From Baekduia soli (GTDB taxonomy: Bacteria; Actinomycetota; Thermoleophilia; Solirubrobacterales; Solirubrobacteraceae), in contig NZ_CP042430.1 in assembly GCF_007970665.1 (NCBI RefSeq), positions 2,046,001 through 2,110,000 on the forward strand: 64,000 bases of DNA, read 5' to 3'. The number at the start of each line of letters is the position of its first letter. Position 1 is the first letter of the stretch. This document shows positions 8,124 through 63,154 of the stretch, in pieces. The translations under genes were made by a program, and so were the position numbers. The notes beneath the pieces are model-generated. The model worked only from the letters and a program-made list of their open reading frames with translations, was not told where the DNA came from and searched no databases.

Positions 8124-8136
8124 GCCGACCCGCCGG

Positions 8137-10691: not shown

Positions 10692-10734
10692 ACCTGTGCC
10701 CACGACATGACCCCGACCTGCGCGCATCCTCGAC

Positions 10735-10767: not shown

Positions 10768-10802
10768 GAGCGCCGCGTGCGGCATAGCGTCCGCCCCATT
10801 CC

Positions 10803-12968: not shown

Positions 12969-13000
12969 CGACCGCCCGGAGCCGGGGATACGCTCGGCCG

Positions 13001-13879: not shown

Positions 13880-14724
13880 CCGGCGCATCCCCACGCGACG
13901 CCGACCAGGACGCCCAGGACGTGGGCAGCCTCGAGGACCGGGTCGCGGCCGCCAACATCCGGCTGCCGGTGCGCGGCAACCGCAAGCTCGACGGGCTCGT
14001 CGCCGCGGTCAACGCCGACGTCCAGCTCAAGGCCTGGTGGCACGCGGCCGCCGTCAACGCCGAGCGGCTGGGCATGTCGGACCACTCGTGGGTCCACATC
14101 CAGATCGTCTCGAACATCGCGCTGCGCCTGACCCGCCTGCTGGCCCGCCGCGGCATCCGCCTGTCCAGCGTCGCCGACCACGGCCTCGACGAGCGCGACG
14201 CGGAGGTCATCATCGTCGCCGCCGCCCTGTTCCACTGCGTCGGGATGTCGATCCACCGCGCCGACCACGAGCAGTTCTCGCTGTTCCTGACGGCCGACAA
14301 GCTGCCGGCGCTGCTCGCCCCGCTCTACGACGAGCCGCGGCGGTCGATCGTCGTCGCCGAGGCCTCGCACGCGATCATCAGCCACCGGTCCAAGGGCGCC
14401 CCGTTCACGATGGAGGGCGCCATCGTCCGGGTCGCCGACGCGCTGGACATGGCCAAGGGCCGCTCGCGCGTCCCGTTCGAGCAGCTGCTGCCCAACATCC
14501 ACTCGCTCTCGTCCTACGCGATCGAGTCGGTCAAGATCTCCGCGGGCACCGACACCGCCGTGCACGTCGAGATCGAGATGAACAACAGCGCCGGCATCTA
14601 CCAGGTCGACGAGGGGCTCGGCACGAAGCTGCGCGGCACGCCGCTGGCCGAGCACCTCGAGGTCGTGGCGCGCATCGACGCCGAGCACGAAGAGCGCCTG
14701 GTCCCCGTCTTCCGCCTGTCCTGA
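13876..14724 (+). CDS. HD-domain metal-dependent phosphohydrolase
   Basis: The 282-residue protein has an HD-like fold. A histidine lies in MSDHSWVHIQIVSNIALRL, where the metal-binding entry helix is expected. The region VAAALFHCVGMSIHRADHEQ stands where HD is normally found, here with an H-C pair and a following histidine cluster. ASHAIISHRSKG and IVRVADALDMAKGRSR supply the further histidine and aspartate. This layout resembles a group of HD phosphohydrolases seen in archaea and actinobacteria. It could act on a nucleotide or phosphomonoester; the substrate is unknown. It is coupled to the lipoprotein deacetylase by a 4-bp overlap. Confidence 0.75.
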   Translation: MTGASPRDADQDAQDVGSLEDRVAAANIRLPVRGNRKLDGLVAAVNADVQLKAWWHAAAVNAERLGMSDHSWVHIQIVSNIALRLTRLLARRGIRLSSVADHGLDERDAEVIIVAAALFHCVGMSIHRADHEQFSLFLTADKLPALLAPLYDEPRRSIVVAEASHAIISHRSKGAPFTMEGAIVRVADALDMAKGRSRVPFEQLLPNIHSLSSYAIESVKISAGTDTAVHVEIEMNNSAGIYQVDEGLGTKLRGTPLAEHLEVVARIDAEHEERLVPVFRLS

Positions 14725-14728
14725 GCCC

Positions 14729-15625
14729 GTGACCACCGTCGCCCGCCGCGTCCTGGACCGCCAGCTGCGCCTCATCGAGGCCCGCGACCTGGAGGGCCTG
14801 CTCGGCCAGTACCACGAGGACGCGGTGCTCCTGCGCTTCGACCGCACGGTGAGCGGCCGCGCCGCCCTGCGCGAGCACCTCGCCGTCCAGCTGGCCCAGG
14901 GGATGCTGGTGCGCGAGCTCGTCCAGGTCGCCGAGACCGACGACCTCGTCTCCTGGCAGGCCGTCGTCGAGGCCGGCGGGCGCGACGTGCGCACCTACGG
15001 GGCGCTGTGGCTGCGCGGCGAACGCATCGCCCGCCAGATCGCCGGGACGTTCCCCGTCGCCGACGCCGCGCCCGCTGCGCGCCGCGCCGCCGTGCGGGTC
15101 GACCTCGAGCCCTACGACGCCTGGGCCGCGCACGCCGTCCCCGATCCGCGCCGGGCCGGCCGCGAGGCCGTCGGCCCGGTGCTCCTGGAGATCGTGCACG
15201 CGGAGGGGCCCGTGCTGGCCGAGCGGGCCTACCGCCTCTACGTGCGGGCGAGCGGCGGCAAGGCGCTGACGTCGATCGCCCGGGCGCCGCTGTCGGGCGC
15301 CGCCTACCGGCTGCGCCAGGCCGGCGCGATCGCCTTCGACGACGAGGACGGCTCGCCCGCGGGCGCCGACCTGGCTCCGGGCCACCCGATCGTGCTGCGC
15401 CCCGCCGGCGTGGCGCCGGTCCGCGTGCGCGAGCTGGGCCCGCGCGCGCTGGACGAGGTGCCGCTCGGTGAGATCGCCGAGCTCATGCGCCGGCTCCGCG
15501 CGGCGGGCGCGGCCGAGCTGCCCCGGGCGGTGCTCGACGCCTACGGCCTGGTGCGGATGACGGCCAAGGCCGAGGAGTACCTCTCGCGCGCCCAGGTCCT
15601 GGCGCTCGGAGCCGCCGGGGCCTGA
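14729..15625 (+). CDS. SnoaL-like/winged-helix hypothetical protein
   Basis: The 298-residue protein starts at a GTG 4 bp after the HD gene. Residues 1-105 look like a SnoaL/NTF2-type fold (RQLRLIEARDLEGLLGQYHE and later YGALWLRGERI), a cone-shaped domain used for ligand binding or catalysis. After a linker, residues about 125-230 resemble the DUF3320-like winged-helix part found at the end of some helicases (GPVLLEIVHAEGPVLAERAY and DGSPAGADLAPGHPIVLRP). The remaining 60 residues are helical. The combination suggests a nucleic-acid-associated or ligand-sensing role, but no function can be assigned. Confidence 0.65.
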   Translation: MTTVARRVLDRQLRLIEARDLEGLLGQYHEDAVLLRFDRTVSGRAALREHLAVQLAQGMLVRELVQVAETDDLVSWQAVVEAGGRDVRTYGALWLRGERIARQIAGTFPVADAAPAARRAAVRVDLEPYDAWAAHAVPDPRRAGREAVGPVLLEIVHAEGPVLAERAYRLYVRASGGKALTSIARAPLSGAAYRLRQAGAIAFDDEDGSPAGADLAPGHPIVLRPAGVAPVRVRELGPRALDEVPLGEIAELMRRLRAAGAAELPRAVLDAYGLVRMTAKAEEYLSRAQVLALGAAGA

Positions 15626-15627
15626 GC

Positions 15628-16581
15628 TCAGGCCGCCGCCGCGACGGCGGCGGCGATCGTCTGGGCGTGGATGTCGACGGTGTCGCGCACGTCGGGGGCG
15701 TAGCCGCCCGCCAGCGTGACGACGACGGGCAGCCCGGCGCGGGCGCAGCGGTCGAGCACGAGCTCGTCGCGGGCCCGCAGGCCCGGCTTGGTCAGGGCCA
15801 GGCGGCCGAGCTTGTCGCCCTCCCACGGGTCGGCGCCCGCGACGTAGAAGGCCAGGTCGGCGACCGCGCCGCCGATCGCCTCGTCCAGGGCGGCGTCCAG
15901 CGCCTGGAGGTAGTCGTCGTCGCCGGTGCCCTGCGGCAGCTCGACGTCGAGGTCGGAGGGGATGCGCACGAAGGGCCAGTTGCGCTCGCACTGGACGCTG
16001 AGCGTGAAGGCCTCGGGGTCCGGCCGCAGCAGCTCGGCGGTGCCGTCGCCCTGGTGGACGTCGCAGTCGATGACGAGGACCCGCCGCAGCGCGCCGGCTC
16101 GGCGCAGCTCGCTCGTGGCGACGGCGAGGTCGTTGAACACGCAGAAGCCGCGGGCCGACGCCCGCGCGGCATGGTGCGTGCCGCCGCCGAGCATGATCCC
16201 GTGGCCGGTCTCCAGGGCGTCGCCGGCGGCGGCCAGCGTGCCCTGCAGCCCGCGCAGCGTGCGCTCGATGAGCTGCTCGGACCACTGCAGCCCCAGGACG
16301 CGCTCCTCGCGGACCTCCAGGGCGCCCGTGCGCATGCGCGTCACGAACACCGGGTCATGGACGCGCAGGACGGCGTCCCAGGCGATGGGCAGCGGCTCGG
16401 CGATGTCGTCCTCGCGCAGGCTGCCGTCACCGACGACGCGGCGCCGCAGCAGCGCGTACTTGTCCAGCGGGTAGCGGCTGCGCGGGCCCAGCGGGAACGT
16501 GAAGCGGCTGTGCGACCAGGCGCGCACGCGCGCGCCCGGCGGCGCGTCGGGCTGGGGGAGGGCGGCCGGCACGGAGGTCAC
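15628..16581 (-). CDS. Histone deacetylase-superfamily amidohydrolase (AcuC-like)
   Basis: The 317-residue zinc hydrolase shows the family motifs in order: the active-site histidine pair in GGTHHAARASARGFCVFND, zinc ligands in VLVIDCDVHQGDGTAEL, the tyrosine and aspartate region YVAGADPWEGDKLG, and the glycine loop LAGGYAPDV. The family covers acetoin-utilisation proteins (AcuC), acetylpolyamine amidohydrolases and protein lysine deacetylases. Because it stands alone and is full-length, lysine or small-molecule deacetylation in the cytosol is likely. Translation starts at GTG (16579-16581). It converges with the preceding plus-strand gene with 2 bp between stops. Confidence 0.92.
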   Translation of the reverse strand: MTSVPAALPQPDAPPGARVRAWSHSRFTFPLGPRSRYPLDKYALLRRRVVGDGSLREDDIAEPLPIAWDAVLRVHDPVFVTRMRTGALEVREERVLGLQWSEQLIERTLRGLQGTLAAAGDALETGHGIMLGGGTHHAARASARGFCVFNDLAVATSELRRAGALRRVLVIDCDVHQGDGTAELLRPDPEAFTLSVQCERNWPFVRIPSDLDVELPQGTGDDDYLQALDAALDEAIGGAVADLAFYVAGADPWEGDKLGRLALTKPGLRARDELVLDRCARAGLPVVVTLAGGYAPDVRDTVDIHAQTIAAAVAAAA

Positions 16582-16623
16582 GAGACGATACGCGCGCCCC
16601 GGCGCGGGTTCACCCGGCCGCGG

Positions 16624-18042
16624 CTAGGCGGAGAAGAACTGGCCGTGGAAGCCGAACGGGATGTGGTGCGGCGCCCGGGCGCGGGCGAGCTCGGTGAAGC
16701 TCCCGGCGTCGAGGACGAGCAGCGAGGAGCACCCGGCGGTGGCGTCGAGCACGACGGCCAGCACGACGCCGTCGCCCTCGGCGGTCGCGCCCGGGCGCGG
16801 CACGAAGACGGGCTCGCCGGCCCACGCGCCGGGCTCCTCCCAGGTGGCGGCGTCCCCGTCCCGGACGTCGAGCTTGACCAGGCGGCGCAGGAACGGCGCC
16901 CCGCCGGCGCCGGCGCCGTAGACGTGGCGGTAGGGCCGGCCGTTGCGTCGCGCGTAGTCGATGCGGGGCAGCTCGAGGTCGACGTCGCCCAGGGGGCGCG
17001 ACGACGGCGCGCCTGCGGCGGGCAGCGTCAGGCGGGTGGGCCGCGCGGCCGGGACGGCCGCGGTGCCGGAGCGCAGGCGGTCGAGCCCGAGCGCGTCGAT
17101 GACCGACGCATCCTCGTAGGCGCAGAGGTCGACGACGAGGTCCTCGCCGTCCTCGAAGGCGTTGATGGTGTGGAAGACGAAGCACGGGTCGGTGGTCCAC
17201 GTGCGGTGCCGCCGCCCGGTGGCCCGGTCGAAGGCGTGCACCCGCAGGCCGAGCTCGGGCTTCCAGCGGTAGTTGTGGATGAACGCGCGCCCGGAGAACG
17301 CCAGCCGCAGCGGGTTGACCACGAGCGGGTTCTCCAGCAGCACGACGAAGCGCGGGGTCAGCCCGAAGGAGTGCATGTAGGCCGGCTCGCGGACCGGGTG
17401 CGTGGCGACCGTGCGGCCCTCGGCCGGCGTGCGCCGCGCGTAGACGCGGTACTCGCTGCGGGCCCCGAGGTGGGCGGCGAAGTTCACGAGCTCGCCGCGC
17501 CGGGGGTCGTGGTGGGGGTGGGCGGTGGTGAGCTGGCCCCAGCGCGCGGCGCCCTCGTCGCGGCCCAGCGTGCGCAGCGTCGCGGGGTCGAAGCGGATGG
17601 GGATCGGCGTCTCGGTCATCGCGATGTGCTCGTCCCCCAGGCGCGTGAGGTTGACGTTGGCGTTGTCGGTCAGCTGCGGCCGGAAGACGGACTGCACGCG
17701 CGCGAAGAGCGAGCGGCACGGGTCGGTGGCGAAGCCGCTGACCGAGGCGCCGCCGGAGGCCAGCGCGCGGCGGCGGGCCGAGGTGTCCAGGAACGCGCTG
17801 GCGTAGGAGACGACGCCGTCGCGCATGCCGAAGCGGTTGAGCATCGCCATGCCGTCGAACCAGTGCGCCACGCTGCGCCCGGCGAAGTCCATCTGGGCCG
17901 GGGTCACGCGGACGAGGTCCCCGGTCAGCCACGCGGGTACGGTGCCCGAGACGCGCAGCGCGTCGATCCGGACCTCCTCGGTCTGGTCGGCGAAGCCCAG
18001 CTGCTGGTCGGCGATCGCCCCGGATGCCGTCGCTGTCATCAT
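16624..18042 (-). CDS. Carotenoid cleavage oxygenase family protein
   Basis: The 472-residue protein is a seven-bladed propeller dioxygenase that uses non-haem iron to split carotenoids, apocarotenoids or stilbene-like alkenes. The four iron-binding histidines are in view: TAHPHHDPRRG, YMHSFGLTPRF, CFVFHTINAFEDG and, at the very end, IPFGFHGQFFSA. The N-terminal VPAWLTGDLVRVTP and HWFDGMAMLNRF blocks are also typical. Two in-frame ATGs (18042 and 18039) are possible starts. The PadR regulator is divergent from it across 27 bp, which suggests direct control. Whether the substrate is a carotenoid cannot be read from sequence. Confidence 0.92.
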   Translation of the reverse strand: MMTATASGAIADQQLGFADQTEEVRIDALRVSGTVPAWLTGDLVRVTPAQMDFAGRSVAHWFDGMAMLNRFGMRDGVVSYASAFLDTSARRRALASGGASVSGFATDPCRSLFARVQSVFRPQLTDNANVNLTRLGDEHIAMTETPIPIRFDPATLRTLGRDEGAARWGQLTTAHPHHDPRRGELVNFAAHLGARSEYRVYARRTPAEGRTVATHPVREPAYMHSFGLTPRFVVLLENPLVVNPLRLAFSGRAFIHNYRWKPELGLRVHAFDRATGRRHRTWTTDPCFVFHTINAFEDGEDLVVDLCAYEDASVIDALGLDRLRSGTAAVPAARPTRLTLPAAGAPSSRPLGDVDLELPRIDYARRNGRPYRHVYGAGAGGAPFLRRLVKLDVRDGDAATWEEPGAWAGEPVFVPRPGATAEGDGVVLAVVLDATAGCSSLLVLDAGSFTELARARAPHHIPFGFHGQFFSA

Positions 18043-18069
18043 CCGAAACGTACCGTCCGAAAGAGACTG

Positions 18070-18618
18070 TTGCAAGACGACCTGAAGCTGACGCCGACGT
18101 CCTACATCGTGCTGGGCCTCGTCGACGCCGCGGGCGGCTCGGAGCTGACGCCCTACGACCTCAAGGCGATGATGGCCATCAGCGTCGACAACTTCTGGTC
18201 GACGCCGCACGCGCAGGTCTACCGGGAGGTCGGGCGACTGGCCGAGGGCGGGCACCTGACCGAGCGCCGCGAGGAGCGCGGCCGGCGCCGGCGCTTCTAC
18301 GCGATCACCGACCGGGGCCGGGCGGCGCTGGAGGCCTGGCGCCACCAGGCGCCCGAGGAGCATCCCCAGCTGCGCGACCCCGGCGTGCTCAAGCTGTTCT
18401 TCGGCGGCGAGCCGTCCGTCGTGGCCGCCCACCAGCTCGGCCTGCACGAGGCCAAGCTGGCCGAGTACGAGGCGCTGTGCGCGCAGGTCGGCGACGCGAT
18501 GCCGGTGCCCCAGCGCCGCGCCCTGGACCTCGGCGTCGCCCACGAGCGGGCGATGATCGCGATCTGGCGCGACGTGGCGCTGGAGGACCGACGCGTCACC
18601 AGTGGACCCCGCGCATGA
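18070..18618 (+). CDS. PadR-family transcriptional regulator
   Basis: The 182-residue protein has a PadR winged helix at residues 5-95 (LTPTSYIVLGLVDAAGG, then WSTPHAQVYREVGRLAEGGH and RRRFYAITDRGRAALEAW) followed by a C-terminal helical dimerisation arm. The start was set at the TTG at 18070, because no ATG or GTG lies in frame near the fold and AAAGAGA lies just upstream. It is divergent from the carotenoid oxygenase, its likely target. The CCGAAA element occurs twice in the 27-bp gap and could be part of the operator. Its 3' end overlaps the reductase gene by 23 bp. Confidence 0.85.
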   Translation: MQDDLKLTPTSYIVLGLVDAAGGSELTPYDLKAMMAISVDNFWSTPHAQVYREVGRLAEGGHLTERREERGRRRRFYAITDRGRAALEAWRHQAPEEHPQLRDPGVLKLFFGGEPSVVAAHQLGLHEAKLAEYEALCAQVGDAMPVPQRRALDLGVAHERAMIAIWRDVALEDRRVTSGPRA

Positions 18619-20578
18619 TGTTGGCCATGGCGATCTGCTCGACCGAGGCCTTCTCGCCCGGGTCCTTCTCGCCGCGCGCCGCGGCCGAGTCGGGGAACAC
18701 CTTGTAGGCCATGTGCAGGATCTGGTCCACGGCCTTGGGCGCGACCGCGTAGAGCACCTCGCCGAACGTGCCCAGGCGCGTGTTGATCTGCTTGGGCTTG
18801 GCGCGGATGGCCTCGCAGATGAGGTCCCCGGCCTCGCTGGGCGAGATCGTCGGGAACGAGTCATAGATCTTGGTCGGCGCGATCATCGGCGTGCGCACGA
18901 GCGGCATGTGGATCGTCGTGAACGTGATGGAGTCGCCGATGAGCTCGGAGGAGGCCACGCGCGTCCAGGCGTCGAGTGCCGCCTTCGAGGCCACGTAGGC
19001 GCTGAAGCGCGGCGGGCTGGTCTGCACGCCGATGCTCGAGACGTTGACGATGTGGCCGAACCTGCGTTCGCGCATGTGCGGCAGCAGTCCCATCGTGAGC
19101 TTGATCGTGCCGAGGTAGTTGAGCTGGACCGTGCGCTCGAAGTCGTGGAAGCGGTCCTGGCTGAGCGCGATGGACCGGCGGATGGACCGCCCGGCGTTGT
19201 TGATGAGCATGTCGATCGCCGCGTGGTCGGCCAGCAGCCGGTCGACGAGCTCCTCGATCGAGTCCAGCGACGACAGGTCGGCGCTGTAGGCGTAGGCGGT
19301 GCCGCCGGCCTGCTCGATCTCGGCCTTGGCCTCCTCGAGCTTGTCCATCGAGCGCGCGACCAGGATCGGGATGCCGCCGGCCCTGGCGATCTTCATCGCC
19401 GCCTCCTTGCCGATGCCCGAGGAGGCGCCGGTGATGACGACGGTGCGGCCGTTGACGGCGTGCTCGAACGAGCGGTCCTTGTACAGGTCGGGGTCCAGCA
19501 CGCGCTCCCAGTGGTCCCACAGGCGGGCCGCGTAGGTCTCGAGCTCGGGCACCTCGATGCCCGAGCCGGCCAACGCGCGCTCGGTGTCACGGGTGTCGAA
19601 CTGCGACGTGAAGCCGACGTGGCCGATGACCTCCGGCGGGATCCCGAAGTCGGCGAGGATCGCGTCGCGCACGCCGCGCAGGGCCGGGAGCTTCATGACC
19701 ATCGACAGCGCCCCCTTGGGCAGCGCGTCGAGCAGGCGCTTGTCGATGCGCATGGCCATGTGGGGGGCGTGGCCGGCGCGCGCGAACGCGTTGAGGACGT
19801 CCCCGGAGCGCTGGCCCTTGGGGTGGGCGAGGTGGAACGCCTGGCCGTCGAGGCCCTCCTGGTGGGCGATGTGGTCCATGGCACGGGCCACGTAGTCGAC
19901 GGGCACGACGTTCGTGTGGCCCAGCTCGGGCCCGATGAGCGGCGCCCACTCCGGCAGCCACCCGCGGATCTTCTGGATGGCCTTGAAGAAGTAGTAGGGG
20001 CCGTCGATCTTGTCCATCACCCCGGTCTGCGAATGGCCGACGACGACCGCGGGGCGGTAGACGCGCCACGGCACGGCCGCGTCCTCGCGGGCGATCTTCT
20101 CGGACTCGAACTTCGTGCGGTGGTAGGCCGAGGGCAGCTTCTGGCCCTCGTCGAACATGTCCTCGCGGAAGAGCCCGCGGTGCTCGCCGGCGGCGGCGAT
20201 CGACGAGGTGTGGTGCAGCGTGCCCGACTCCAGCGCGTTGGCCAGGGCCACGGCGTTGCGGGTGCCGTCGACGTTGAGGCGCTCGTTGCGCTCCTCGTCG
20301 GCGGTCATGTCGTAGATCGCGGCGAGGTGGAAGAAGTGGTCGATGGCGCCGCGGTGCTCGGCGATCCACGCCTCGTCGACGCCGAGCATGGGGAGGGCGA
20401 GGTCGCCGGTGACCGGCTTGACGCGGTCGCCGTCGGGCCAGGAGGCGATGAGCTCGTCGAGACGGTCGCGCGACGTGGCGCGCACCAGCACGTGGACGTC
20501 GCCGCTGCGGTTGCGCAGCAACTCCTCCACGAGGTGGCGGCCGATGAACCCCGTCGCTCCGGTCACGAAGTACGCCAT
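18596..20578 (-). CDS. Bifunctional SDR: fatty acyl-CoA reductase, AcrA1-like
   Basis: The 660-residue protein joins two Rossmann modules. The N-terminal half is an extended SDR of the male-sterility/NAD_binding_4 type (YFVTGATGFIGRHLVEELL, AYHRTKFESEKIAR with the catalytic Tyr-Lys). The C-terminal half begins near residue 375 with VVITGASSGIGKEAAMKIAR and has NNAGRSIRRS and a second active site SAYVASKAALDAW. This order and length match mycobacterial AcrA1 (Rv3391-like) enzymes that reduce fatty acyl-CoA, in steps toward wax or ether lipids. It is followed on the same strand by a crotonase gene lying upstream. It overlaps the PadR 3' end. Confidence 0.88.
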   Translation of the reverse strand: MAYFVTGATGFIGRHLVEELLRNRSGDVHVLVRATSRDRLDELIASWPDGDRVKPVTGDLALPMLGVDEAWIAEHRGAIDHFFHLAAIYDMTADEERNERLNVDGTRNAVALANALESGTLHHTSSIAAAGEHRGLFREDMFDEGQKLPSAYHRTKFESEKIAREDAAVPWRVYRPAVVVGHSQTGVMDKIDGPYYFFKAIQKIRGWLPEWAPLIGPELGHTNVVPVDYVARAMDHIAHQEGLDGQAFHLAHPKGQRSGDVLNAFARAGHAPHMAMRIDKRLLDALPKGALSMVMKLPALRGVRDAILADFGIPPEVIGHVGFTSQFDTRDTERALAGSGIEVPELETYAARLWDHWERVLDPDLYKDRSFEHAVNGRTVVITGASSGIGKEAAMKIARAGGIPILVARSMDKLEEAKAEIEQAGGTAYAYSADLSSLDSIEELVDRLLADHAAIDMLINNAGRSIRRSIALSQDRFHDFERTVQLNYLGTIKLTMGLLPHMRERRFGHIVNVSSIGVQTSPPRFSAYVASKAALDAWTRVASSELIGDSITFTTIHMPLVRTPMIAPTKIYDSFPTISPSEAGDLICEAIRAKPKQINTRLGTFGEVLYAVAPKAVDQILHMAYKVFPDSAAARGEKDPGEKASVEQIAMANIMRGVHW

Positions 20579-55165: not shown

Positions 55166-55969
55166 ATGCGGTCGACGGGCTCCGAGGACGGGCAGGCGCT
55201 CATGGCGCTGCTCGTCGTGCTGGCCGCGGTCTGCCTCGGCGCGTCGGCGCTGGGGAGCATCGCCCGCGCCCTGGGCGACCACCGGGCCCACCGCGGCGTG
55301 GCCGACCTCGCCGCGCTGGCCGGCGCCGACGCGATGCGCGTCGCGCAGCCGCGGCTCTTCGAGCCCGCGCTGCGCGACGGGGTCGCCAACCCCCGGCATC
55401 TCGAGCGTCCCGCCTACCTCGCGCTCGGGCGCCGCGCGGCGATCTCGACGGCCCGGCGCAACGGCGTCACGGCGGTCGCCGTCACCTTCCCGGACGCCCG
55501 CGCGCTGGCGCCGACGCGGATCACCGTGGAGGTGTCCGAGCCGCTGCGGGCCGCGGGGCGCCGGGTGGGCGACGTCGCGTCGGCGACGGCGGAGATCGCC
55601 CCGGTGCCGTTCGCCGGCGCCGGCGGCGACCTCTCCGGCGAGTACCGCGGTCCGCTGGCCCGCCGCCAGGGCAAGCCGATGCGCCCCGACGTCGCGGCGG
55701 CGTTCGACCGCATGGCGGCCGCCGCCCGGCGCGACGGGGTGGCCCTGCTGGTGACCTCGGCGTTCCGCACCGACGGCGAGCAGGCGCGGCTGTTCGCCGC
55801 CCACCCCGACCCCAAGTGGGTCGCGCGGCCGGGCACGTCGCTGCACCGTCTGGGCACCGAGCTGGACCTCGGTCCACCGTCGGCCTACGCCTGGCTGGCG
55901 CGCCACGCGGGGGCGTTCGGCTTCGTACAGCGCTACTCCTGGGAGCCCTGGCACTACGAGACGTCGTAA
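55166..55969 (+). CDS. TadG-like N-terminus fused to a VanY-type D,D-carboxypeptidase
   Basis: The 267-residue protein begins with a TadE/TadG-type leader and helix (SEDGQALMALLVVLAAVCLG) and a TadG-like segment (HRGVADLAALAGADAMRVAQ). From about residue 170 it has an M15/VanY peptidase domain: LLVTSAFRTDGEQARLFAAH, then TSLHRLGTELDLG with the first zinc histidine and aspartate, and the final EPWHYE zinc motif. All metal ligands are present. ATG 55166 follows GAGG closely; GTG 55160 is an alternative. The enzyme should trim stem peptides outside the membrane, perhaps to open the wall for a pilus. Confidence 0.82.
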   Translation: MRSTGSEDGQALMALLVVLAAVCLGASALGSIARALGDHRAHRGVADLAALAGADAMRVAQPRLFEPALRDGVANPRHLERPAYLALGRRAAISTARRNGVTAVAVTFPDARALAPTRITVEVSEPLRAAGRRVGDVASATAEIAPVPFAGAGGDLSGEYRGPLARRQGKPMRPDVAAAFDRMAAAARRDGVALLVTSAFRTDGEQARLFAAHPDPKWVARPGTSLHRLGTELDLGPPSAYAWLARHAGAFGFVQRYSWEPWHYETS

Positions 55970-56012: not shown

Positions 56013-56044
56013 AGCCCCGTCCGCCGGGAGAGGCGAATGGGGCT
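56013..56044 (-). terminator. Strong hairpin ending the minus-strand accessory operon
   Basis: AGCCCC at 56013-56018 pairs with GGGGCT at 56039-56044, continuing through one mismatch into TCCGCC and GGCGAA, for a stem of about 12 bp with a short loop. On the minus strand it follows the last accessory gene (stop at 56137) and is followed by TTCGTCGTGG. It could terminate transcription in either direction. Nothing else is seen between 55970 and 56136. Confidence 0.55.
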
Positions 56045-56136
56045 GAAGTGGCCCGGAGGTGGGCCGTCGCCCTAGGGGGATGCCCTCCGCCAAGGAACGT
56101 GGACACATGCGCTAGTTCTAGAGCACAGACGCGACG

Positions 56137-56403
56137 TCAGGCCCGGGTGGCGCGGGCGGCGGCGAGCGCGGCCGGGTTCCCTGCCCCTCCGCTCCGGCGC
56201 ACCGACCGGAAGCTGAGCAGCGCCGCGGGCAGCTCGAACCGAGCCCAGGCCGAACCGTCGTGCTTCCCCTCCTCGACGAGGGTCGCCGCGGGGTTGTTGC
56301 GGAGCTTCGTGATGATCGGGCGCTGAGCGGTCCAGATGCTCAGCGTGTCGTCGGCGTCTGAGGTCGTCACGACCGTCTCGCGCTCAGGGGGAGTCATGCT
56401 CAT
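56137..56403 (-). CDS. Small accessory protein of actinophage type
   Basis: The 88-residue protein starts at ATG 56403 (MSMTPPERETVV), with AAAGGA upstream. The core DADDTLSIWTAQRPIITKLR followed by DGSAWARFELPAALLSFRSV resembles a small conserved protein common in actinobacterial phages and mobile elements, of unknown function. The same frame is open upstream to 56733, so a longer fused product cannot be excluded, but the internal ribosome-binding site supports a separate gene. Confidence 0.65.
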   Translation of the reverse strand: MSMTPPERETVVTTSDADDTLSIWTAQRPIITKLRNNPAATLVEEGKHDGSAWARFELPAALLSFRSVRRSGGAGNPAALAAARATRA

Positions 56404-56733
56404 GGTGGGGGGTCCTTTCAACGGGGGAGGGGAACAGAGCGACGGGCCAGGGGCTGACGCCCGAGGCTGGAGGCGCGCGCGGTGCGCGGCCTTCTTCGCG
56501 GCGACGGCCTGGCGGCGCTGCTTGCGCTCCGCGGCCTGGGCCTGGCGGCAGCCCGACGACCGCTCGCATCCGGCGTCGAGGATCAGGTGCTCGTGCGCGA
56601 CGTCGACGAGGTCGAGCACGACGGGCGTCCCGGGCATCTCCGGGTCCGTGCCCTTGATCGTCCGGGCGTCCCAGTCATAGACCGGGTCGCTGAGGCGCTG
56701 AGTGCCGTCCCGGTGGCAGACCGAGATAATCAT
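56404..56733 (-). CDS. Small accessory protein, in frame with the next gene
   Basis: From ATG 56733, which overlaps the upstream stop as ATGA, the frame reads MIISVCHRDGTQRLSDPVYD, then GTPVVLDLVDVAHEHLILDA and a cysteine pair, then a lysine/arginine/alanine-rich helix (AERKQRRQAVAAKKAAHRAR). It does not reach its own stop but runs into the 56403 gene. Either the two are one 198-residue protein or a base has been lost and the stop is hidden. No family was recognised; the basic helix suggests nucleic-acid contact. Confidence 0.5.
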
Positions 56734-57023
56734 GAAGGGTGCGCCTCGTCGTCGGTGGCGTACATGTTGAGGTCCTCAGCGCCGTCGCCCGTGGCCAGCT
56801 CGGCGAGCCTCGCAGCGGTCGAGCACGGCCCACAGTCGGGGACCGGCGCCCCGGTGTGCAGGTGTCGGTGGATCACGGCGGCCCGGAACAGAGCCCGGAG
56901 GTCGTCGCGCGCCGCGGCGTACCGGACCGCTTGGGCCTCCAGCTCCGAGGCGAGCGCGGGATGCGCCGAGTACTCGGCTACCGCGGCCGGAGGGCCGCTA
57001 GTGCCCTGCCTACGCGCGGCCAT
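56730..57023 (-). CDS. Small hypothetical protein in the terminase operon
   Basis: The 97-residue protein starts best at ATG 57023, 8 bp after GAGGAG; GTG 57032 is an alternative that overlaps the terminase gene. It is helical (VAEYSAHPALASELEAQAVR, DDLRALFRAAVIHRHLHTG) with a CGPC pair and an acidic tail (DGAEDLNMYATDDEAHPS). Its function is unknown. It is coupled by overlap to the genes on both sides. Confidence 0.65.
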   Translation of the reverse strand: MAARRQGTSGPPAAVAEYSAHPALASELEAQAVRYAAARDDLRALFRAAVIHRHLHTGAPVPDCGPCSTAARLAELATGDGAEDLNMYATDDEAHPS

Positions 57024-57024
57024 C

Positions 57025-57339
57025 TCAGGCACTCCTCAGGCGTGCCGGGGCGGGGGCCTCGGCCTCGGGGAGGTCGAGCTGGGCCATCAGCGCGGCGTAC
57101 GCGCGCCGGGACTTCGCCTCGATGTCGACGGCCGGGTGAGGCCGGAGCTGGTCGAAGCGGTCGAGCACGAACACCCCGTCGCGGCGGAGAGCCCGGCGGG
57201 CCTGGGCGGCGCGGTCGAGGGCCTCCAGGGCGAGGCGCAGCAGCTCGACCTCGTGGGCCTCGAACTCGAACGACGCGGTAAGCGTGGCCCAGAGGCCGCG
57301 CGACCCCACCGAGAGGTGACTCGGACAGTTGTGCAGCAT
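57025..57339 (-). CDS. P27-like phage terminase small subunit
   Basis: The 104-residue protein begins at ATG 57339 with GGAGG 6 bp upstream. The block ASFEFEAHEVELLRLALEAL, DRAAQARRALRRDGVFVLD, LRPHPAVDIEAKSRRAYAAL and MAQLDLP is the pattern of P27-type small terminase subunits, which recognise phage DNA for packaging. It is short and lacks the usual N-terminal helix-turn-helix. No large subunit, portal or capsid gene is in the window. It is the first gene of a four-gene minus-strand operon. The 276-bp region upstream (57340-57615) has a T7 run at 57467-57473 but no gene. Confidence 0.75.
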   Translation of the reverse strand: MLHNCPSHLSVGSRGLWATLTASFEFEAHEVELLRLALEALDRAAQARRALRRDGVFVLDRFDQLRPHPAVDIEAKSRRAYAALMAQLDLPEAEAPAPARLRSA

Positions 57340-57615
57340 GTTGATCCTCCAGGATCGAGGGACGGGTTCTGTGCGGCAGTTCGACGACCGTCGAGCGAGG
57401 GACTTGGCTCCACAGCAGGCGGAACGACACCACGGGGCGCCCCGAATCCGGGGAAGCGCTCGCAGCTTTTTTTCCACGCTGGACTAGGGCGCGGTGTCCG
57501 GGAGTAGGCGCGGGGGAGTCCCCCGGGTGGGCCTCGGCGGTCTCGTAGATGACGAGCGGGCGGCGTGTCGTCGTGTCGATGCACTAGACCTTGCGACCGT
57601 GGATTCATCGAACGC

Positions 57616-57957
57616 ATGTGCCGCTGGCAGTTCCACAGCGATGGGCAGGACTCCGTGACCTGGGCGATCCCCGCGGCCGTGTGGCTGGCGATCGTCGTCG
57701 CCGTGTTCTACGACGCCAACGGCCGCGCGTGGCACGGCTGGACAAGCGCCGGGTTCTGGGGCGCCATGGCTTTCTTGTTCTCCGTCTTCGCGGTCCCGTT
57801 CTACTTGCTCGCGCGTGCCCGCTCGTCCCGCGTCGCGCCCGTTGAGGCGCCTTCCGGGCACACGGTCGTCGGCCCAGGATGGCTTCCGGACCCCCACGGT
57901 CAACACCGCCTGCGCTACTGGGACGGCGCCCGATGGACCAACGAGACTGCGGACTGA
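57616..57957 (+). CDS. DUF2510-containing membrane protein
   Basis: The 113-residue protein has two hydrophobic segments (VTWAIPAAVWLAIVVAVFYD and WGAMAFLFSVFAVPFYLLAR) and a C-terminal DUF2510 motif (PGWLPDPHGQHRLRYWDGAR then WT). This motif of about 35 residues occurs at the ends of many actinobacterial membrane proteins and has no known function. ATG 57616 (MCRWQFHSDG) is the preferred start. It is transcribed opposite to the terminase operon. Confidence 0.7.
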   Translation: MCRWQFHSDGQDSVTWAIPAAVWLAIVVAVFYDANGRAWHGWTSAGFWGAMAFLFSVFAVPFYLLARARSSRVAPVEAPSGHTVVGPGWLPDPHGQHRLRYWDGARWTNETAD

Positions 57958-57989
57958 ACCATTGACTCAAACGGGGCTCGCGCGGCTGT

Positions 57990-58157
57990 ATGGCGAAGTC
58001 TGAGGCCCAGTGGGTCGGGTGCGTCCGGCACGTCACGGTCAGGCAGGTGGAGCGGTCGGGTACCCGGGCGGCGGTATGCGCGAGGGAGGGCGCCGACGCT
58101 TGCGATGGGGCGGGGCTCCGGTGGGAGGTCTGGTTGGACCGGCGCGCGGGACCGTGA
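57990..58157 (+). CDS. Possible small protein (55 residues)
   Basis: An open frame from ATG 57990 to TGA 58157 reads MAKSEAQWVGCVRHVTVRQV, then VCAREGADACDGAGLRWEVW and a short basic end. Composition is balanced, with two tryptophans and several valines and cysteines, which is less typical of shadow frames in GC-rich DNA. There is no clear ribosome-binding site. It is the only candidate in the 247-bp gap 57958-58204. Confidence 0.25.
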   Translation: MAKSEAQWVGCVRHVTVRQVERSGTRAAVCAREGADACDGAGLRWEVWLDRRAGP

Positions 58158-58204
58158 CGCGGCAGGGCGTCCGACCACTCCGCAGGGGGCGGCGGTCGGC
58201 TGTT

Positions 58205-58558
58205 CTAGATCCCGGCGCGCTGGAGGTGCGCGCGGACGTCAAGCGCTGCGTTCGTGCCAATCTTGAGGTCCACGCCCGCGCCTCTGAGCTTGAGCTTGCC
58301 TGACGAGGCCTCGATCTGGGTGATGCCGTCACGCGGGACATCGCGGACGCCGCCGTGGCTGTCGATGACCAGGACACGGCGATCGGTCACGAGCAACAAC
58401 ACCTTCGTGCTCATGAGGCCGATGGTGCCGCCGCCGACCATCTCCACGGTCTCACCCGGTGCGAGGTGGCGTCCCGACTGGGAGATGATCCCGCGCAAGG
58501 TGAAGAACTGCACTCGGTTGAGCTGCTCGCGGGCCTTGTCCTCGATCACCCTCGACAT
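58205..58558 (-). CDS. Bacterial PH-like domain protein
   Basis: The 117-residue protein starts at ATG 58558 after GGGGAG. The segment STKVLLLVTDRRVLVIDSHG followed by RDGITQIEASSGKLKLRGAG and LKIGTNAALDVRAHLQR is the pattern of small bacterial PH-like domains, which bind lipids or proteins. An N-terminal helix (DKAREQLNRVQFFTLRG) precedes it. Its target is unknown. Confidence 0.7.
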   Translation of the reverse strand: MSRVIEDKAREQLNRVQFFTLRGIISQSGRHLAPGETVEMVGGGTIGLMSTKVLLLVTDRRVLVIDSHGGVRDVPRDGITQIEASSGKLKLRGAGVDLKIGTNAALDVRAHLQRAGI

Positions 58559-58709
58559 GGATGCTGCTCCCCTCTTGACAGTTGGGCCGACCGCGATCCG
58601 GAAGCGTACCGGCAGGTGTTCAGAGGTCACGCCCGGCCGTCCTGCTCCGCCGCCCGTCGGGTCATGAGGGCGTGGCGGTTCGGTCCGGGTCGAGCGGTAC
58701 ACCATCGCG

Positions 58710-58985
58710 ATGAACTGGAAGATCGTCGGCGGTCCCGTACCGCAGCCCGAGGCGGGCGACCATCGTCGCGTCCTCTACATCGCCGAAAGGGGCACGGCTC
58801 GCGTGGGCGTCGTCGTCGAATTGTCGGGGACGGTGCTGGCGTGCGCTCCCGAGTCGCTGGCGTCACCCTTGGACGAGGCCGTGCGGACGATGGGGCGGTC
58901 GCTCATCGAGGAGCGTGCGCACGAGGAGAGCCTTCCTCGGGTGCTGCGCGTGTCGACGGCCGGGGCCGTCGCGGCGGCGGCCTAG
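58710..58985 (+). CDS. Hypothetical protein
   Basis: The 91-residue protein begins MNWKIVGGPVPQPEAGDHRR and has a beta-rich middle (VLYIAERGTARVGVVVELSG) and a helical end (DEAVRTMGRSLIEERAHEES). Its last 4 bases overlap the stop of the convergent PIN gene. No family was recognised and no membrane segment is seen. Confidence 0.55.
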   Translation: MNWKIVGGPVPQPEAGDHRRVLYIAERGTARVGVVVELSGTVLACAPESLASPLDEAVRTMGRSLIEERAHEESLPRVLRVSTAGAVAAAA

Positions 58986-59443
58986 AAGGAGAGGCCCTGG
59001 GCTCGGATGAATCCCAGGGTGTCGATGCACGGAATGGCGACACCGCCGCAGACGAACGGGATCTTCGGGCGCTTGTCGGACCCGCCTCGCTCCTCGGTCA
59101 CGACGGTGAGGCCTCGTACGACGGCGAGGGCGATCACGAACGGGTCGGCGCGGTTGCGGTCGGCCAGCTCGCCGACCAGGCGGGGGTAATCGCCGAGGAT
59201 CGCCGTGGTGGCTTCCATCTGGGCGTGGTCGAGCTGAGCGAATAGGGCGGGGCGGCCCTGCGCCCACTCGTGGAGGTCGTCTTCCTTTGCCGATAGCTCG
59301 TTCAGGACTTCCTCGGGGCTCACGACCTCCCCAGCCTCGATCAGGGCGTCGAGCGCCGTCCAGAGGCCCGGGAAGACGTCGGGCGGGTAGCTGCGCACCC
59401 AGGCGCCGACGAGGAAGCTCGTGTCGAGGCAGAACGAGGCCAC
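58982..59443 (-). CDS. DUF4411-type PIN-like nuclease, probable toxin
   Basis: The 153-residue protein begins at GTG 59443 with ASFCLDTSFLVGAWVRSYPP, with the first PIN aspartate. SPEEVLNELSAKEDDLHEWA carries the glutamate and LADRNRADPFVIALAVVRGL the later acidic residues, as in PIN-like RNases of the DUF4411 group. The gene starts 4 bp after the XRE-ImmA/IrrE gene on the same strand, an arrangement seen widely in bacteria. By analogy the pair would be a toxin-antitoxin-like module with the PIN protein as RNase toxin. Confidence 0.82.
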   Translation of the reverse strand: MASFCLDTSFLVGAWVRSYPPDVFPGLWTALDALIEAGEVVSPEEVLNELSAKEDDLHEWAQGRPALFAQLDHAQMEATTAILGDYPRLVGELADRNRADPFVIALAVVRGLTVVTEERGGSDKRPKIPFVCGGVAIPCIDTLGFIRAQGLSF

Positions 59444-59447
59444 GGCG

Positions 59448-60614
59448 TCAGCGGGTCAGAGCCTCGCGCTCGATTTTCGGGAGGTGCTTCAGCCGGATGC
59501 CGAGGTAGTCCGAGACCTCTGACACGTTGATTCGGTCGCCGTGGTAGGCGTCGAGGACGAGCCGGACGTACGCCTTGCCGAGATCGCGGACACGGACGCG
59601 ATGGAATGGCGCAAAGCCTTCCTCGTCGGCGCGCTGCTGCATGTACGCCTCGTGGTACTCGGCGCGCTTGTGCATGTAGAAGTCCCAGGAGCCGACGCCG
59701 AGCGAGAGCAGGCGCCGAACGACGGACTCCTGGCTGACCGAGTACCGGGTGGCAAGCTCGCCGATGATCGAGTCGGGGACCTCTACGTCGCCGTGTGCAG
59801 CGCGTACCGCTGCCTCCTGACCGAACGTGTCGGCGGGCATGAGGATGGCGGCGGCCGTTTCGTTGCAGAAGCGCTCGGTCTCGTCGTCCTGTCCGTCGCC
59901 CTGGTCGTGGAGGTCGCAGACACCCGCCTCGTTGAGCAGGAGGTGGACCCATTCGTGCAGGGCGGTGAAGATCCGCCCTCGCGGGGCATCACTGCCGTTG
60001 AGCACGATGACGGGCACGACGGGGTCTGATATCGAGAAGCCGCGCATCTCGTCCACGGCTATCCCGCTGGTCTGGAGCACGAGGACCCCCGCTTCTTCAA
60101 GGGCGGCCGTCCAGCCCGCCAGCGCCTTGTAGCGGTCACGCCACGAGAACTGCTGGGCCAAGGTGACTCCGAGCACTCCGCGCGCCTCAGCGGCGAAGCG
60201 CTCGGCGTCGGTCGCGTCAGCGTTGACGACCGGCAGGGCGGGTGGCTCCTCGCCGAGGAGGCTTCGCAGCTCCGAGGCCGCCTGCTGCTGGCCCTCGGCA
60301 CGACGGAGCGCTAGCCGCAGCGCCGGGGACCACCCTTCGCCGATGGTGCCGGGCAGGCGACGATAGTCGTGCAGGGGCATGAAGCCGCTGGGTGGCTCGG
60401 GCAGGAAGAAGACGGCGAGAGGTCGCTTGTACGCCTTCGCGAGGTTCCGAAGCTGGGCGACGGTCGGCGACGCTTCCCCTGACTCCCAGCCGTCCAGACG
60501 CTCGCGCGTGACGTTCACCTTCCGGGCGGCGTCCTCCCGAGACAGGCCGCTGCTCTCGCGAGCCCAGGCGAGTAGCTCAGGGGCGACCGGTGCGGGGGGC
60601 GTGCGGGCGGCCAT
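59448..60614 (-). CDS. XRE-family regulator with ImmA/IrrE metallopeptidase domain
   Basis: The 388-residue protein has a helix-turn-helix at about residues 12-68 (WARESSGLSREDAARKVNV, then LDGWESGEASPTVAQLRNLA) and an ImmA/IrrE zinc-protease domain whose HEXXH motif is H220-E-W-V-H224 (FTALHEWVHLLLNEAG). ERFCNETAAAILMPADTF supplies the third ligand region. ATG 60614 (MAARTPPAPV) was chosen for its fit to the helix-turn-helix start. It is paired with the PIN-like gene and probably represses the pair or neutralises the toxin. Similar ImmA-type proteins also cleave phage repressors, which suits this phage-like region. Confidence 0.88.
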   Translation of the reverse strand: MAARTPPAPVAPELLAWARESSGLSREDAARKVNVTRERLDGWESGEASPTVAQLRNLAKAYKRPLAVFFLPEPPSGFMPLHDYRRLPGTIGEGWSPALRLALRRAEGQQQAASELRSLLGEEPPALPVVNADATDAERFAAEARGVLGVTLAQQFSWRDRYKALAGWTAALEEAGVLVLQTSGIAVDEMRGFSISDPVVPVIVLNGSDAPRGRIFTALHEWVHLLLNEAGVCDLHDQGDGQDDETERFCNETAAAILMPADTFGQEAAVRAAHGDVEVPDSIIGELATRYSVSQESVVRRLLSLGVGSWDFYMHKRAEYHEAYMQQRADEEGFAPFHRVRVRDLGKAYVRLVLDAYHGDRINVSEVSDYLGIRLKHLPKIEREALTR

Positions 60615-60685
60615 ACTTGGACGGGTCAGACTACGCGGCTGGGTCGAAGTGTCCTTCGTCGGTCGGTCGGCACCAGACGGCCGGG

Positions 60686-60886
60686 TCATCGCGGCTCGGG
60701 GTCGAGCGCGCGTAGCGCGGCGACGGACGCCAGGTCGGGAGCGTTCTCACCCCAGGTCAGGCAGGCCGGGTCGACCCAGCGCGTGCGGATCGGCGAGGCT
60801 CGGTAAGGCGCCGCCTTGCCGTGGCCTGAGAGCGTGACGCGCCTGGGCTGCTCGCCACGAGCGGATCCGCGAGGGCGGCCGGTCAC
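60686..60886 (-). CDS. Small hypothetical protein
   Basis: The 66-residue protein starts at GTG 60886, overlapping the upstream stop as GTGA. It reads VTGRPRGSARGEQPRRVTLS and ends with VDPACLTWGENAPDLASVAA plus a short tail. The N-terminal half is basic. Its coupling to the zinc-finger gene is the main evidence that it is real. Its function is unknown. Confidence 0.5.
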   Translation of the reverse strand: MTGRPRGSARGEQPRRVTLSGHGKAAPYRASPIRTRWVDPACLTWGENAPDLASVAALRALDPEPR

Positions 60887-61110
60887 GAGAACATGCCGGC
60901 CGTACCGCGACGGCGGGCGCTCTGGTGGCCCTCGACCCAGTCCGCGAACTTGGCGGCGTGGTCGGTGCGGTGCTCGTGCGCCTCGACCCATGCGGTCCAG
61001 CACGGAGCGCACGTTCCGTCGTTTGGGGCGGGCGTCGTGAACAGTGCGGCAGGCTGGACACGCCGACAGCGGCGGCAGCGGCGAGAGTCAGGCGAAGGGG
61101 CGGGAGGCAT
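60883..61110 (-). CDS. Small zinc-finger protein
   Basis: The 75-residue protein starts at ATG 61110 (MPPAPSPDSRRC). It has CRRCRRVQPAALF followed by GTCAPCWTAWVEAHEHR, a CxxC pair spaced by about 20 residues that should bind zinc, and a helical tail (DHAAKFADWVEGHQSARRR). Proteins of this type are common in actinophages and may bind DNA. It is coupled to the next gene by overlap. Confidence 0.6.
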   Translation of the reverse strand: MPPAPSPDSRRCRRCRRVQPAALFTTPAPNDGTCAPCWTAWVEAHEHRTDHAAKFADWVEGHQSARRRGTAGMFS

Positions 61111-61229
61111 AGGGGATGCTCCGGGGTCGGTGTTCGGCCCGAGGGACGGGCGAGGAGGGGCAGGGACGCGCGGCGGCGTATGTCTTCGGGGCGGCGCCGT
61201 GTAAACGGGAGGGCGGCGGCACCCTTGGC

Positions 61230-61485: not shown

Positions 61486-62070
61486 CTAGCGGCGGACGTC
61501 CACGGGGCGGCACGGCGTCGAGAGGACCTCGACGCTCGGCAGCGGCCAGGCGGGGCACGAGGACACCTCGGGCACGTCCGGCGTCCATTCGCCGTAGGAC
61601 GCCCGGGCGGCCTCCCACGAGGTCCGCGACTTGTTGTAGGCGTCCGTCAGGGCCGCGAGGTCGGCCTCCGCGGCGGCGGCGAGCTGGGCGCTGTCGGCGG
61701 CGAACACGTCCGCCTCGCGCTCGTGCAGGTCGGCGACCTGATCGCGCAGCTCGCGGATTGCGGTGTTCGCGACGGCGATCCGCTCGATGGCGGCGGCGTG
61801 CTCGGACTCGACGCGGGCGAGGTCGTCCTGAGCCTTCGCCAGCTCGGCCGGGGGCGTGGTGCCCTTGGCGACCCCGAGGTGGGCGGCGGCGATTACGGCG
61901 TGCAGCTTGCGCCATCCGCCGTTGTTCCCGGCCCCGCCGTACTTCTGGGCGAGCGCCGCGACCTCGGCCTGCGCCGTCGCCTTGAAGGCGGTGGCCGATG
62001 CGAGCTGCTCGCGAAGCCGCTCGCGCTCGGTGAGCGGCCCGGACTTGTTGGTGCTCTTGACGGCGGCCAT
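61486..62070 (-). CDS. Coiled-coil hypothetical protein
   Basis: The 194-residue protein starts MAAVKSTNKSGPLTERERLR and is mostly helical with heptad patterns (AELAKAQDDLARVESEHAAA, then IAVANTAIRELRDQVADLHE and LAAAAEADLAALTDAYNK). The final 35 residues are proline-rich with cysteines. It could be a scaffold or structural protein of a phage-like element, but no match is certain. It follows the 62074-62388 gene by 3 bp on the same strand, so the two are co-transcribed. Confidence 0.6.
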   Translation of the reverse strand: MAAVKSTNKSGPLTERERLREQLASATAFKATAQAEVAALAQKYGGAGNNGGWRKLHAVIAAAHLGVAKGTTPPAELAKAQDDLARVESEHAAAIERIAVANTAIRELRDQVADLHEREADVFAADSAQLAAAAEADLAALTDAYNKSRTSWEAARASYGEWTPDVPEVSSCPAWPLPSVEVLSTPCRPVDVRR

Positions 62071-62073: not shown

Positions 62074-62388
62074 TCAGCGCACCTTGGACAGGTCGATGTC
62101 GCCGCGATCGGCAGCGGCGTTGAACCCCCGCGGATCGCGGCGGGCAAAGTCGGCGATCGCCTCGCGGGTGTTGGGACCGCGCGGCAGCTCGCGCGGCGTG
62201 CCGCCGTCGAAGCCGTCGGCGGGGTTCGGTGGGGCCGCGGGGCTGACCGTGACGGCAGCGAGCCGCTCGGCGTGCGCCGACATGTCCGCGGCGGTATCGC
62301 CCACGAGCAGGTCGGCGAGTGCGGGGGCGAGGCCGTGGGAGGCGCCGACGGCGCGCCTCAGGTCGCTGGGGGTGACGGGATCGTGCAT
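62074..62388 (-). CDS. Hypothetical phage-type protein
   Basis: The 104-residue protein starts at ATG 62388 with AAGGAG 11 bp upstream. It reads SDLRRAVGASHGLAPALADL, then VGDTAADMSAHAERLAAVTV and a Pro/Gly hinge, and ends REAIADFARRDPRGFNAAAD then GDIDLSKVR. The pattern of a leading LADxLxG-x-T-x(6)-HAERL segment resembles the C-terminal part of phage scaffold or head-assembly proteins, but it is short and this is a weak call. Confidence 0.5.
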   Translation of the reverse strand: MHDPVTPSDLRRAVGASHGLAPALADLLVGDTAADMSAHAERLAAVTVSPAAPPNPADGFDGGTPRELPRGPNTREAIADFARRDPRGFNAAADRGDIDLSKVR

Positions 62389-62446: not shown

Positions 62447-62581
62447 CTACGCGGGCCGCGAGCGCGGCCGGGGCACGACGAGCCCGCGGGCCGCGAGGAG
62501 CTGCAAGCAGCTCGACGACTGCACGCGAGGGTCGAGCGCGCGGAGCAAGTCCAGCTCGCGGCGCTCGGCGCGGGTGGTCAC
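62447..62581 (-). CDS. Very small hypothetical protein (44 residues)
   Basis: Starting at GTG 62581, which overlaps the stop of the ribbon-helix-helix gene as GTGA, the frame reads VTTRAERRELDLLRALDPRV and then QSSSCLQLLAARGLVVPRPR before TAG at 62447. The stop-start overlap and the leucine-rich helical pattern support a real small gene. Its function is unknown. Confidence 0.4.
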   Translation of the reverse strand: MTTRAERRELDLLRALDPRVQSSSCLQLLAARGLVVPRPRSRPA

Positions 62582-62802
62582 GAGGCGCGGGCCTCGACGC
62601 GAGCCTCGACGCGAGCGACTCGCGCCAGCTCGCGACGGATCAGGCGGCGCAGATTGGCCGACATGCCACCCGCCGGGGACGCGGCCATCAGCGCGTCGCA
62701 GTCAGCGGCCGTGACGACGCATCCGATCGTGACGGCGGTATCGGGTTCGGTGACGCGGGTCCGCGGACGGCCCATGCTGCTTCCGGTCGTCTCGTTGTGC
62801 AT
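62578..62802 (-). CDS. Small ribbon-helix-helix-like protein
   Basis: The 74-residue protein has a beta-like segment (TRVTEPDTAVTIGCVVTAAD) followed by two helices (CDALMAASPAG and SANLRRLIRRELARVARVEA), the layout of ribbon-helix-helix DNA-binding proteins. Its end repeats RVEAR in tandem, from a short DNA repeat near 62590-62620. It could be a regulator of the accessory region. Confidence 0.55.
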   Translation of the reverse strand: MHNETTGSSMGRPRTRVTEPDTAVTIGCVVTAADCDALMAASPAGGMSANLRRLIRRELARVARVEARVEARAS

Positions 62803-62872
62803 GTGTTTGACCTCCCGGTCTGGTGGGGGGCGGCCCGGGAGGTCGGGACGCGCGAAACGATGGGTGGGGGCT

Positions 62873-63154
62873 TCAGCGGCGCGGCAGGCTCGCGGCCCGC
62901 TCGGGGCCGGGCGGCCTCGACGAGTACGCCGACCGGATCGGCTCCAGGCCGTGGGTCGCGCGGAGGCGCTCGCGGTGGAACGCCAGGAGCGGCGCGCCGT
63001 CGGCGTCGAGGCACAGCGTCCCGGCGTCCGCGAGGCAGTTGCGGCACGGCACGTAGAACGGTGACATGCCCTCTACGCAGGCGGCGGCGGCGATATGGGC
63101 GGCGGCGATCTGCTCGCGGGCCGCGGCGCGGCGGCGGTCGTTCCTGGACTTCAT
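62873..63154 (-). CDS. Small zinc-finger, phage-type DNA-binding protein
   Basis: The 93-residue protein starts at ATG 63154 after GGGAG. It has a basic start (MKSRNDRRRAAAREQIAAAH) and then the pattern VPCRNCLADAGTLCLDADG followed by LLAFHRERLRATHG, a C-x2-C-x6-C...H zinc finger common in mycobacteriophage and actinophage DNA-binding proteins. It appears to be the first gene of the minus-strand accessory operon. The 845-bp region beyond it (63155-64000) shows no convincing gene. Confidence 0.65.
   Translation of the reverse strand: MKSRNDRRRAAAREQIAAAHIAAAACVEGMSPFYVPCRNCLADAGTLCLDADGAPLLAFHRERLRATHGLEPIRSAYSSRPPGPERAASLPRR

Follow-up and report, generated by a model that had tools for sequence, protein, structure and literature searches.

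The terS operon

The window analysed here comprises 64,000 nucleotides of the single-contig 5.21-Mb genome of Baekduia soli (bases 2,046,001-2,110,000). On its minus strand, from 57339 to 56137, lies an operon of small genes led by a gene for a small terminase subunit (TerS) of the P27/HK97 type, as had been proposed, at these coordinates, in an earlier note made from the letters of the window. The terS gene (57025-57339, minus strand, 104 aa) is recognised by Pfam, NCBIfam, PHROG and structure matches. The second gene (56730-57032, minus strand, 100 aa, or 97 aa from a later start) carries a His/Cys-rich patch and is 42% identical to the 96-aa gene at the same position in a sister island described below. 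The third (56407-56733, with its end at about 56410, minus strand) is about 53-55% identical to a 94-aa gene there, and the fourth (56137-56406, minus strand), which resembles phrog_1709 (E=1e-3), is 76% identical to an 88-aa gene. In the present operon the last two genes share one continuous frame of 198 aa, but the sister island encodes them separately, as 94 and 88 aa, and at 56406, inside the long frame, an AAAGGA with an ATG gives the fourth gene its own ribosome-binding site and start; the earlier count of four genes is therefore reasonable. The hairpin reported at the end of the operon (56013-56044, minus strand) was likewise recovered, the region folding at -45.4 kcal/mol (z -2.4), and the sister operon also ends in a strong hairpin (z -3.25).

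The evidence for TerS consists of several modest lines. The protein scores 23.7 bits against Pfam Terminase_4 (E=6.7e-5), one bit short of the cut-off of 24.7, and 22.2 bits against NCBIfam sm_term_P27 (E=1e-4), well below the cut-off of 45.6, so that the curated threshold of the P27 family is reached in neither database. This family is the only one listed for the protein in Pfam and NCBIfam, the sister protein (35% identical) matches the same families, and all PHROG matches having a named function are small terminases. An AlphaFold model, built with three relatives, reached a pLDDT of 87.7. Among predicted viral structures, nearly all of its 30 best matches carry the annotation of a terminase small subunit (best E about 1e-4, probability 0.99-1.00). 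In the PDB, HK97 small terminase takes the first two places (Z 7.9 and 7.4), unrelated helical proteins following at a short distance; the superposition on 6z6e (Z 7.9) has an rmsd of 4.0 over 90 residues. These structural matches point to the HK97/P27-type fold. The family scores under the curated cut-offs, and a PDB score not far above that of unrelated helical proteins, could also be expected of a TerS look-alike, a small DNA-binding or helical protein that is no terminase, yet two diverged sister proteins matching the same families and an almost uniform set of small terminases among the viral structures make this highly improbable. Once the individually modest lines are combined, the assignment as TerS is solid. 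The sole PDB sequence matches of the TerS profile, alpha-catenins with E above 0.02, were taken as chance, and neither TerS nor the 88-aa protein had a tblastn match in 50,697 phage records.

Extent and insertion site of the island

The operon forms the distal end of an integrated island that begins at 55951, fills the window to 64000 and ends 2.7 kb further on, at position 66693 (1-2693 of the extension, L010), giving a length of 10.74 kb. To the right of 64000 the extended sequence holds a 77-aa gene (64692-64925, 77% identical to its sister counterpart), then a large serine integrase at the other end of the island (65134-66651, 505 aa; Pfam Resolvase and Recombinase domains, phrog_95 with E=5e-53), and then chromosome. 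The distal att core, GCACTACG (55951-55958), has its second copy at 66686-66693; this exact 8-bp match between the junctions lies where the reading frame of the relatives breaks, within the WHY codons of a split M15 peptidase-transglycosylase gene (...WEPWHY|G). The left flank is the M15 peptidase gene (55166-55969) and the right flank the lytic transglycosylase gene (66699-67196). In 18 of the 19 relatives' loci the two adjoin directly, as against 10.7 kb between them here; the 19th locus sits near a contig end, and those junctions that were read show one open peptidase-transglycosylase frame. The empty site in relatives and the core repeat at both junctions together mark out a 10.74-kb insertion with defined ends of the kind that a serine integrase should produce.

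The earlier note had called for extending the sequence and for a search for insertion boundaries in related genomes, and both gave clear answers: an integrase and an att core were found where a complete prophage might have continued, and the boundary is clean against the 18 unsplit loci. A prophage running on past the window is ruled out, as chromosomal sequence begins again 35 bp past the start of the integrase, and with it the note's alternative of a prophage edge.

As to the host gene, its product is a single protein in relatives; after the insertion the peptidase domain ends in a short new tail, and the transglycosylase may begin at a GTG.

A sister island in the same chromosome

Searching the genome with the operon revealed a second island of 11.0 kb at about 3.73 Mb (G000:C1:3719752-3730787; L012/L013), inserted in the 5' end of efp, with AGCACCAA[C/T]CAGTTC at both junctions. 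Relatives have an uninterrupted efp start, MISTNQF, and the sister island provides a substitute start that yields MFVSTNQF. The two integrases are 34% identical. Shared by both islands are the gene order, the terS operon, a 1.57-kb block of 82% identity that includes a 104-aa scaffold-like gene, and a 25-bp motif which is unique to them genome-wide. All core genes have the same orientation, with the integrase first and the TerS operon last, in the order integrase, 77/81-aa protein, variable early region, scaffold-like protein, coiled-coil protein, Cys-rich 75-aa protein with a 66-aa ORF, variable cargo, a 64-bp element, TerS and three small genes. Besides the operon genes, whose identities are given above, the 77/81-aa proteins are 77%, the scaffold-like proteins 59% and the coiled-coil proteins (here 194 aa, 61486-62070, minus strand) 58% identical. 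Across the sister pairs pN/pS ranges from 0.39 to 0.86, being 0.39 for the 88-aa gene, 0.44 for the 77-aa gene and 0.67-0.86 for most pairs, so that two genes are clearly constrained and the others weakly; the value for the terS pair is high (0.86) and saturated.

The variable early region (62578-63154, minus strand) holds here a 74-aa ORF (62578-62802) and a zinc-finger-like 93-aa protein (62873-63154), matched below cut-off by Pfam Phage_zn_bind_8 (E=2e-4). At 60686-61110 of the same strand are two short overlapping ORFs, of 66 aa (60686-60886) and, for the Cys-rich protein, 75 aa (60883-61110). Between the islands the stretch 60686-61160 is 91-100% identical at the DNA level, compared with 62-86% in its neighbours. 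The islands have probably recombined, since identity reaches 96-100% over some 300 bp at the Cys-rich gene, amid core DNA that mostly shows 62-86%. The Cys-rich protein itself has no known relative.

A probable free-standing half of a head scaffolding protein

The 104-aa scaffold-like protein (62074-62388, minus strand) appears to be a relative, encoded on its own, of the C-terminal half of the head scaffolding proteins of phages. Its PHROG matches are head scaffolding proteins (best E=8.7e-5, phrog_233), and the likeness covers the C-terminal half only. A search of the genomes of the family with both sister proteins led to a prophage in another genus (L044, G154:C62), in which the matched gene encodes 237 aa, lies downstream of the large terminase and just upstream of the major capsid gene, and is itself recognised as a scaffold (phrog_1793, E=2.5e-35). 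The alignment with the island protein covers residues 135-233 of this scaffold, nearly to its last residue, at 36% identity (hhalign E=3.7e-8). The 17 tblastn matches of the island protein among the 50,697 phage records (E 2e-3 to 8e-2) all fall in genes with a scaffolding annotation. As PHROG gives no match for the sister protein by itself, the scaffold call rests on the sister pair. A structure model of the scaffold half (pLDDT 71, pTM 0.40) was too poor for a fold search.

The prophage just mentioned (7915-20000 of its contig) is a tailed prophage of the same bacterial family with terminase, portal, scaffold and capsid genes; its scaffold is the nearest relative found for the island protein, and it may serve as a model of what a helper could look like.

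Cargo slot and conserved non-coding sites

Between the last shared ORF and terS both islands have a slot of nearly constant length, about 3.35 kb here and 3.42 kb in the sister island, with unrelated contents. The present slot (57616-60689), without match in the sister island, contains genes recognised by Pfam as a DUF2510 membrane protein (57616-57957, plus strand) and, on the minus strand, a PH-like protein (58205-58558), a DUF4411 PIN protein (58982-59443) and an HTH protein with M78 peptidase (59448-60689), the last also resembling RmrA in PADLOC (E=7e-19). The HTH-M78 gene with the PIN gene directly 3' of it (58982-60689) is likely a toxin-antitoxin or RmrA-like defence pair; in this place the sister island has genes for a SpoIIE-type phosphatase and for a 506-aa protein of unknown family.

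Two non-coding elements are conserved between the islands. A 64-bp element upstream of terS (57468-57531, minus strand), at the boundary of the slot, is 81% identical between the islands (E=1.7e-11) and is set between unrelated cargo and a diverged terS; that it might be a promoter or a pac-like site is a guess. The 25-bp motif AGAACTAGCGCATGTGTCCACGTTC lies at 56095-56119 (minus strand). As the pattern AGAACTAGCGCNTGNGTCCACGTTC (up to 2 mismatches) it occurs three times in 5.2 Mb, in these two islands only and always at TerS operon ends, once here and twice in the sister island, and the reversed control pattern has 0 sites. The first sister copy sits within an inverted repeat, CCCAGAAC...GTTCTGGG. 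This motif is a candidate site for TerS or for a regulator, again as a guess.

Phage genes, helper and distribution

The earlier note had seen neither a large terminase nor a portal gene near the operon, and this absence extends to the whole genome: three large terminase (TerL) models (PF03354, phrog_9, phrog_2) and one portal model (PF04860), all of which matched in control genomes, found none. Major capsid or tail genes are missing among the called island genes scanned against PHROGs, and TerL, portal and major capsid protein of the prophage L044 have no tblastn match in the islands. A resident helper prophage was likewise sought with the four models and rejected; a helper, if any, would come from outside or be of a type that those models miss. 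No primase or rep gene for replication was recognised in the islands, nor was another transfer system among their family matches.

Within the searches made, the exact family is known from one genome only. Further members were found neither in viral contigs (alignments of the scaffold-like, 77-aa and coiled-coil proteins, and both integrases) nor in genome contigs (coiled coil, integrase), nor in 146 related genomes (scaffold-like, TerS, 88-aa) or 232 of them (77-aa). One viral match of the 77-aa protein (L052) was discarded, being inside another gene of an unrelated contig, as were weak matches in three genomes (G152, G029, G163) without a supporting neighbourhood. The TerS search also gave two islands with a lone P27 TerS and a serine integrase. 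One (L050, G009:C251, about 2000-16700) is located between rph and the rdgB region and contains, besides the serine integrase, a prohead protease and a helicase and no TerL or portal match; the other (L051, G027:C3, about 3035-14460) measures about 11.3 kb, splits a bcp-like peroxiredoxin gene, for which it brings a replacement 5' part, and contains HNH and prim-pol genes. Both resemble the present pair in having a large serine integrase beside a housekeeping gene and a P27 TerS with no match to TerL or portal, but they differ in their other core genes and in that no scaffold half was found, so that little is common beyond TerS and the integrase type.

Comparison with known satellites

Satellites have been studied best in staphylococci, enterobacteria and vibrios, and the P4-like ones, of about 11 kb, are of the same size as the present islands. 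In P4-like satellites the Sid scaffold redirects capsid size and cos packaging is done by the helper terminase (PMC10690885); a scaffold of their own that may act on capsid size is a further likeness. The Sid scaffold itself is a difference, and the island has its own TerS where P4 depends on the terminase of the helper.

With the SaPI-type PICIs the islands share the att-flanked, integrated arrangement of small genes, the own TerS without TerL, which some PICI members have in their packaging module, and the accessory cargo. SaPI1 CpmB has a C-terminal capsid-binding motif in common with the helper scaffold and imposes small capsids by it (PMC5644958). The small island protein corresponding to the C-terminal part of a phage scaffold fits the logic of CpmB, and a similar function would follow; the likeness is one of architecture. 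Unlike PICIs, the islands have a serine integrase, lack a primase-rep match and measure 10.7-11.0 kb rather than about 15 kb (PMC6092414). The PICI layout, with int and a master repressor divergent from xis, primase-rep and ori, is absent, as integrase and core genes lie on one strand in both islands.

A large serine recombinase serves for excision in the PLE of Vibrio cholerae (PMC6002521), which also remodels helper capsids into small ones (PMC10945586); the recombinase type is in common. PLEs are 18-19 kb long and have no identified TerS-type packaging module (PMC6092414), and the islands, at 10.7 and 11.0 kb, have neither their size nor, as far as described, their gene content. The Mulch and Flayer satellites of Streptomyces, actinobacterial as well, parasitise virulent phages and encode terminase large subunit, portal and capsid (PMC10690885), all absent here; the same is true of the own capsid, portal and both terminase subunits which define capsid-forming satellites, cfPICI included. 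Without the PICI layout and without such capsid genes, the islands are filed as a separate satellite family and not as PICIs. Judging from their genes, the best reading is a new family that combines a SaPI-like TerS and a CpmB-like scaffold decoy with a PLE-like serine integrase.

A probable phage satellite and its alternatives

On the evidence of sequence, we consider it probable, at roughly three in four, that we are dealing with an integrated phage satellite, the element being one of two sisters in the chromosome, and that it works as proposed in the following. It has an integrase and defined att junctions, no recognised genes for particles of its own, and, with TerS and the scaffold half, genes that by their homology would act on the packaging and capsid assembly of a helper. 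On infection by, or induction of, a tailed phage, the integrase would excise the island, and the island TerS would load its DNA onto the large terminase of the helper, perhaps at the 25-bp motif or at the element upstream of terS. The free-standing scaffold half may then bind the capsid protein of the helper in place of the helper scaffold and bias assembly towards a smaller head that fits about 11 kb. The HTH-M78 and PIN genes would be swappable cargo, probably toxin-antitoxin or anti-phage. The earlier suggestion of a phage satellite is in this way well supported by sequence, and the second island with the same core, the scaffold-derived protein and the matching size go beyond it; counting against it, the TerS and scaffold matches are each modest, PHROG does not match the sister scaffold-like protein by itself, neither a replication gene nor a resident helper was recognised, the terS pair has a high pN/pS, and the searches place the exact family in a single genome.

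The earlier note had also considered a decayed prophage, in which terS and scaffold fragments are left after deletion of head and tail genes and no mobilisation occurs at present. A scaffold gene present only in part, a genome without a helper and the weak constraint on most gene pairs would agree with it. Simple decay is nevertheless unlikely: the integrases and sites of the two elements differ, yet both have arrived at the same architecture and size, with their frames intact. The ends of the scaffold half are, moreover, common to both islands, the 77-aa and 88-aa genes are clearly constrained, and scaffold-like gene and terS are far apart with the cargo slot between them, which is unlike the phage order. 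Somewhat less probable still is an integrative element with defence or toxin-antitoxin cargo that is itself unpackaged and whose TerS and scaffold are decoys disturbing phage assembly. Its cargo does resemble such genes, and decoy proteins alone could poison packaging or assembly; however, this would leave unexplained the near-equal size of the two islands and the conserved non-coding motif beside the terS operon, and the family matches offer no other transfer system.

It seems an even chance that the two islands represent an undescribed satellite family of a deep actinobacterial lineage, which joins an HK97/P27-type TerS and a free-standing scaffold C-terminal half as capsid-size decoy to a serine integrase and to a slot of fixed length for exchangeable cargo. 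In that case the principle of SaPI CpmB would have been invented independently here, and one chromosome would hold two members that coexist and exchange DNA. No published description of such a family was found in the limited open-access literature covered. The att sites, the cargo slot and the candidate packaging motif are now concrete enough to be searched for in other genomes. If the reading is true, a satellite with TerS and half a scaffold would suggest that the theft of the packaging adaptor and the capsid-size ruler alone evolved more than once, and it would offer a small experimental system in which the competition of a scaffold C-terminus for an HK97-type capsid protein could be studied.
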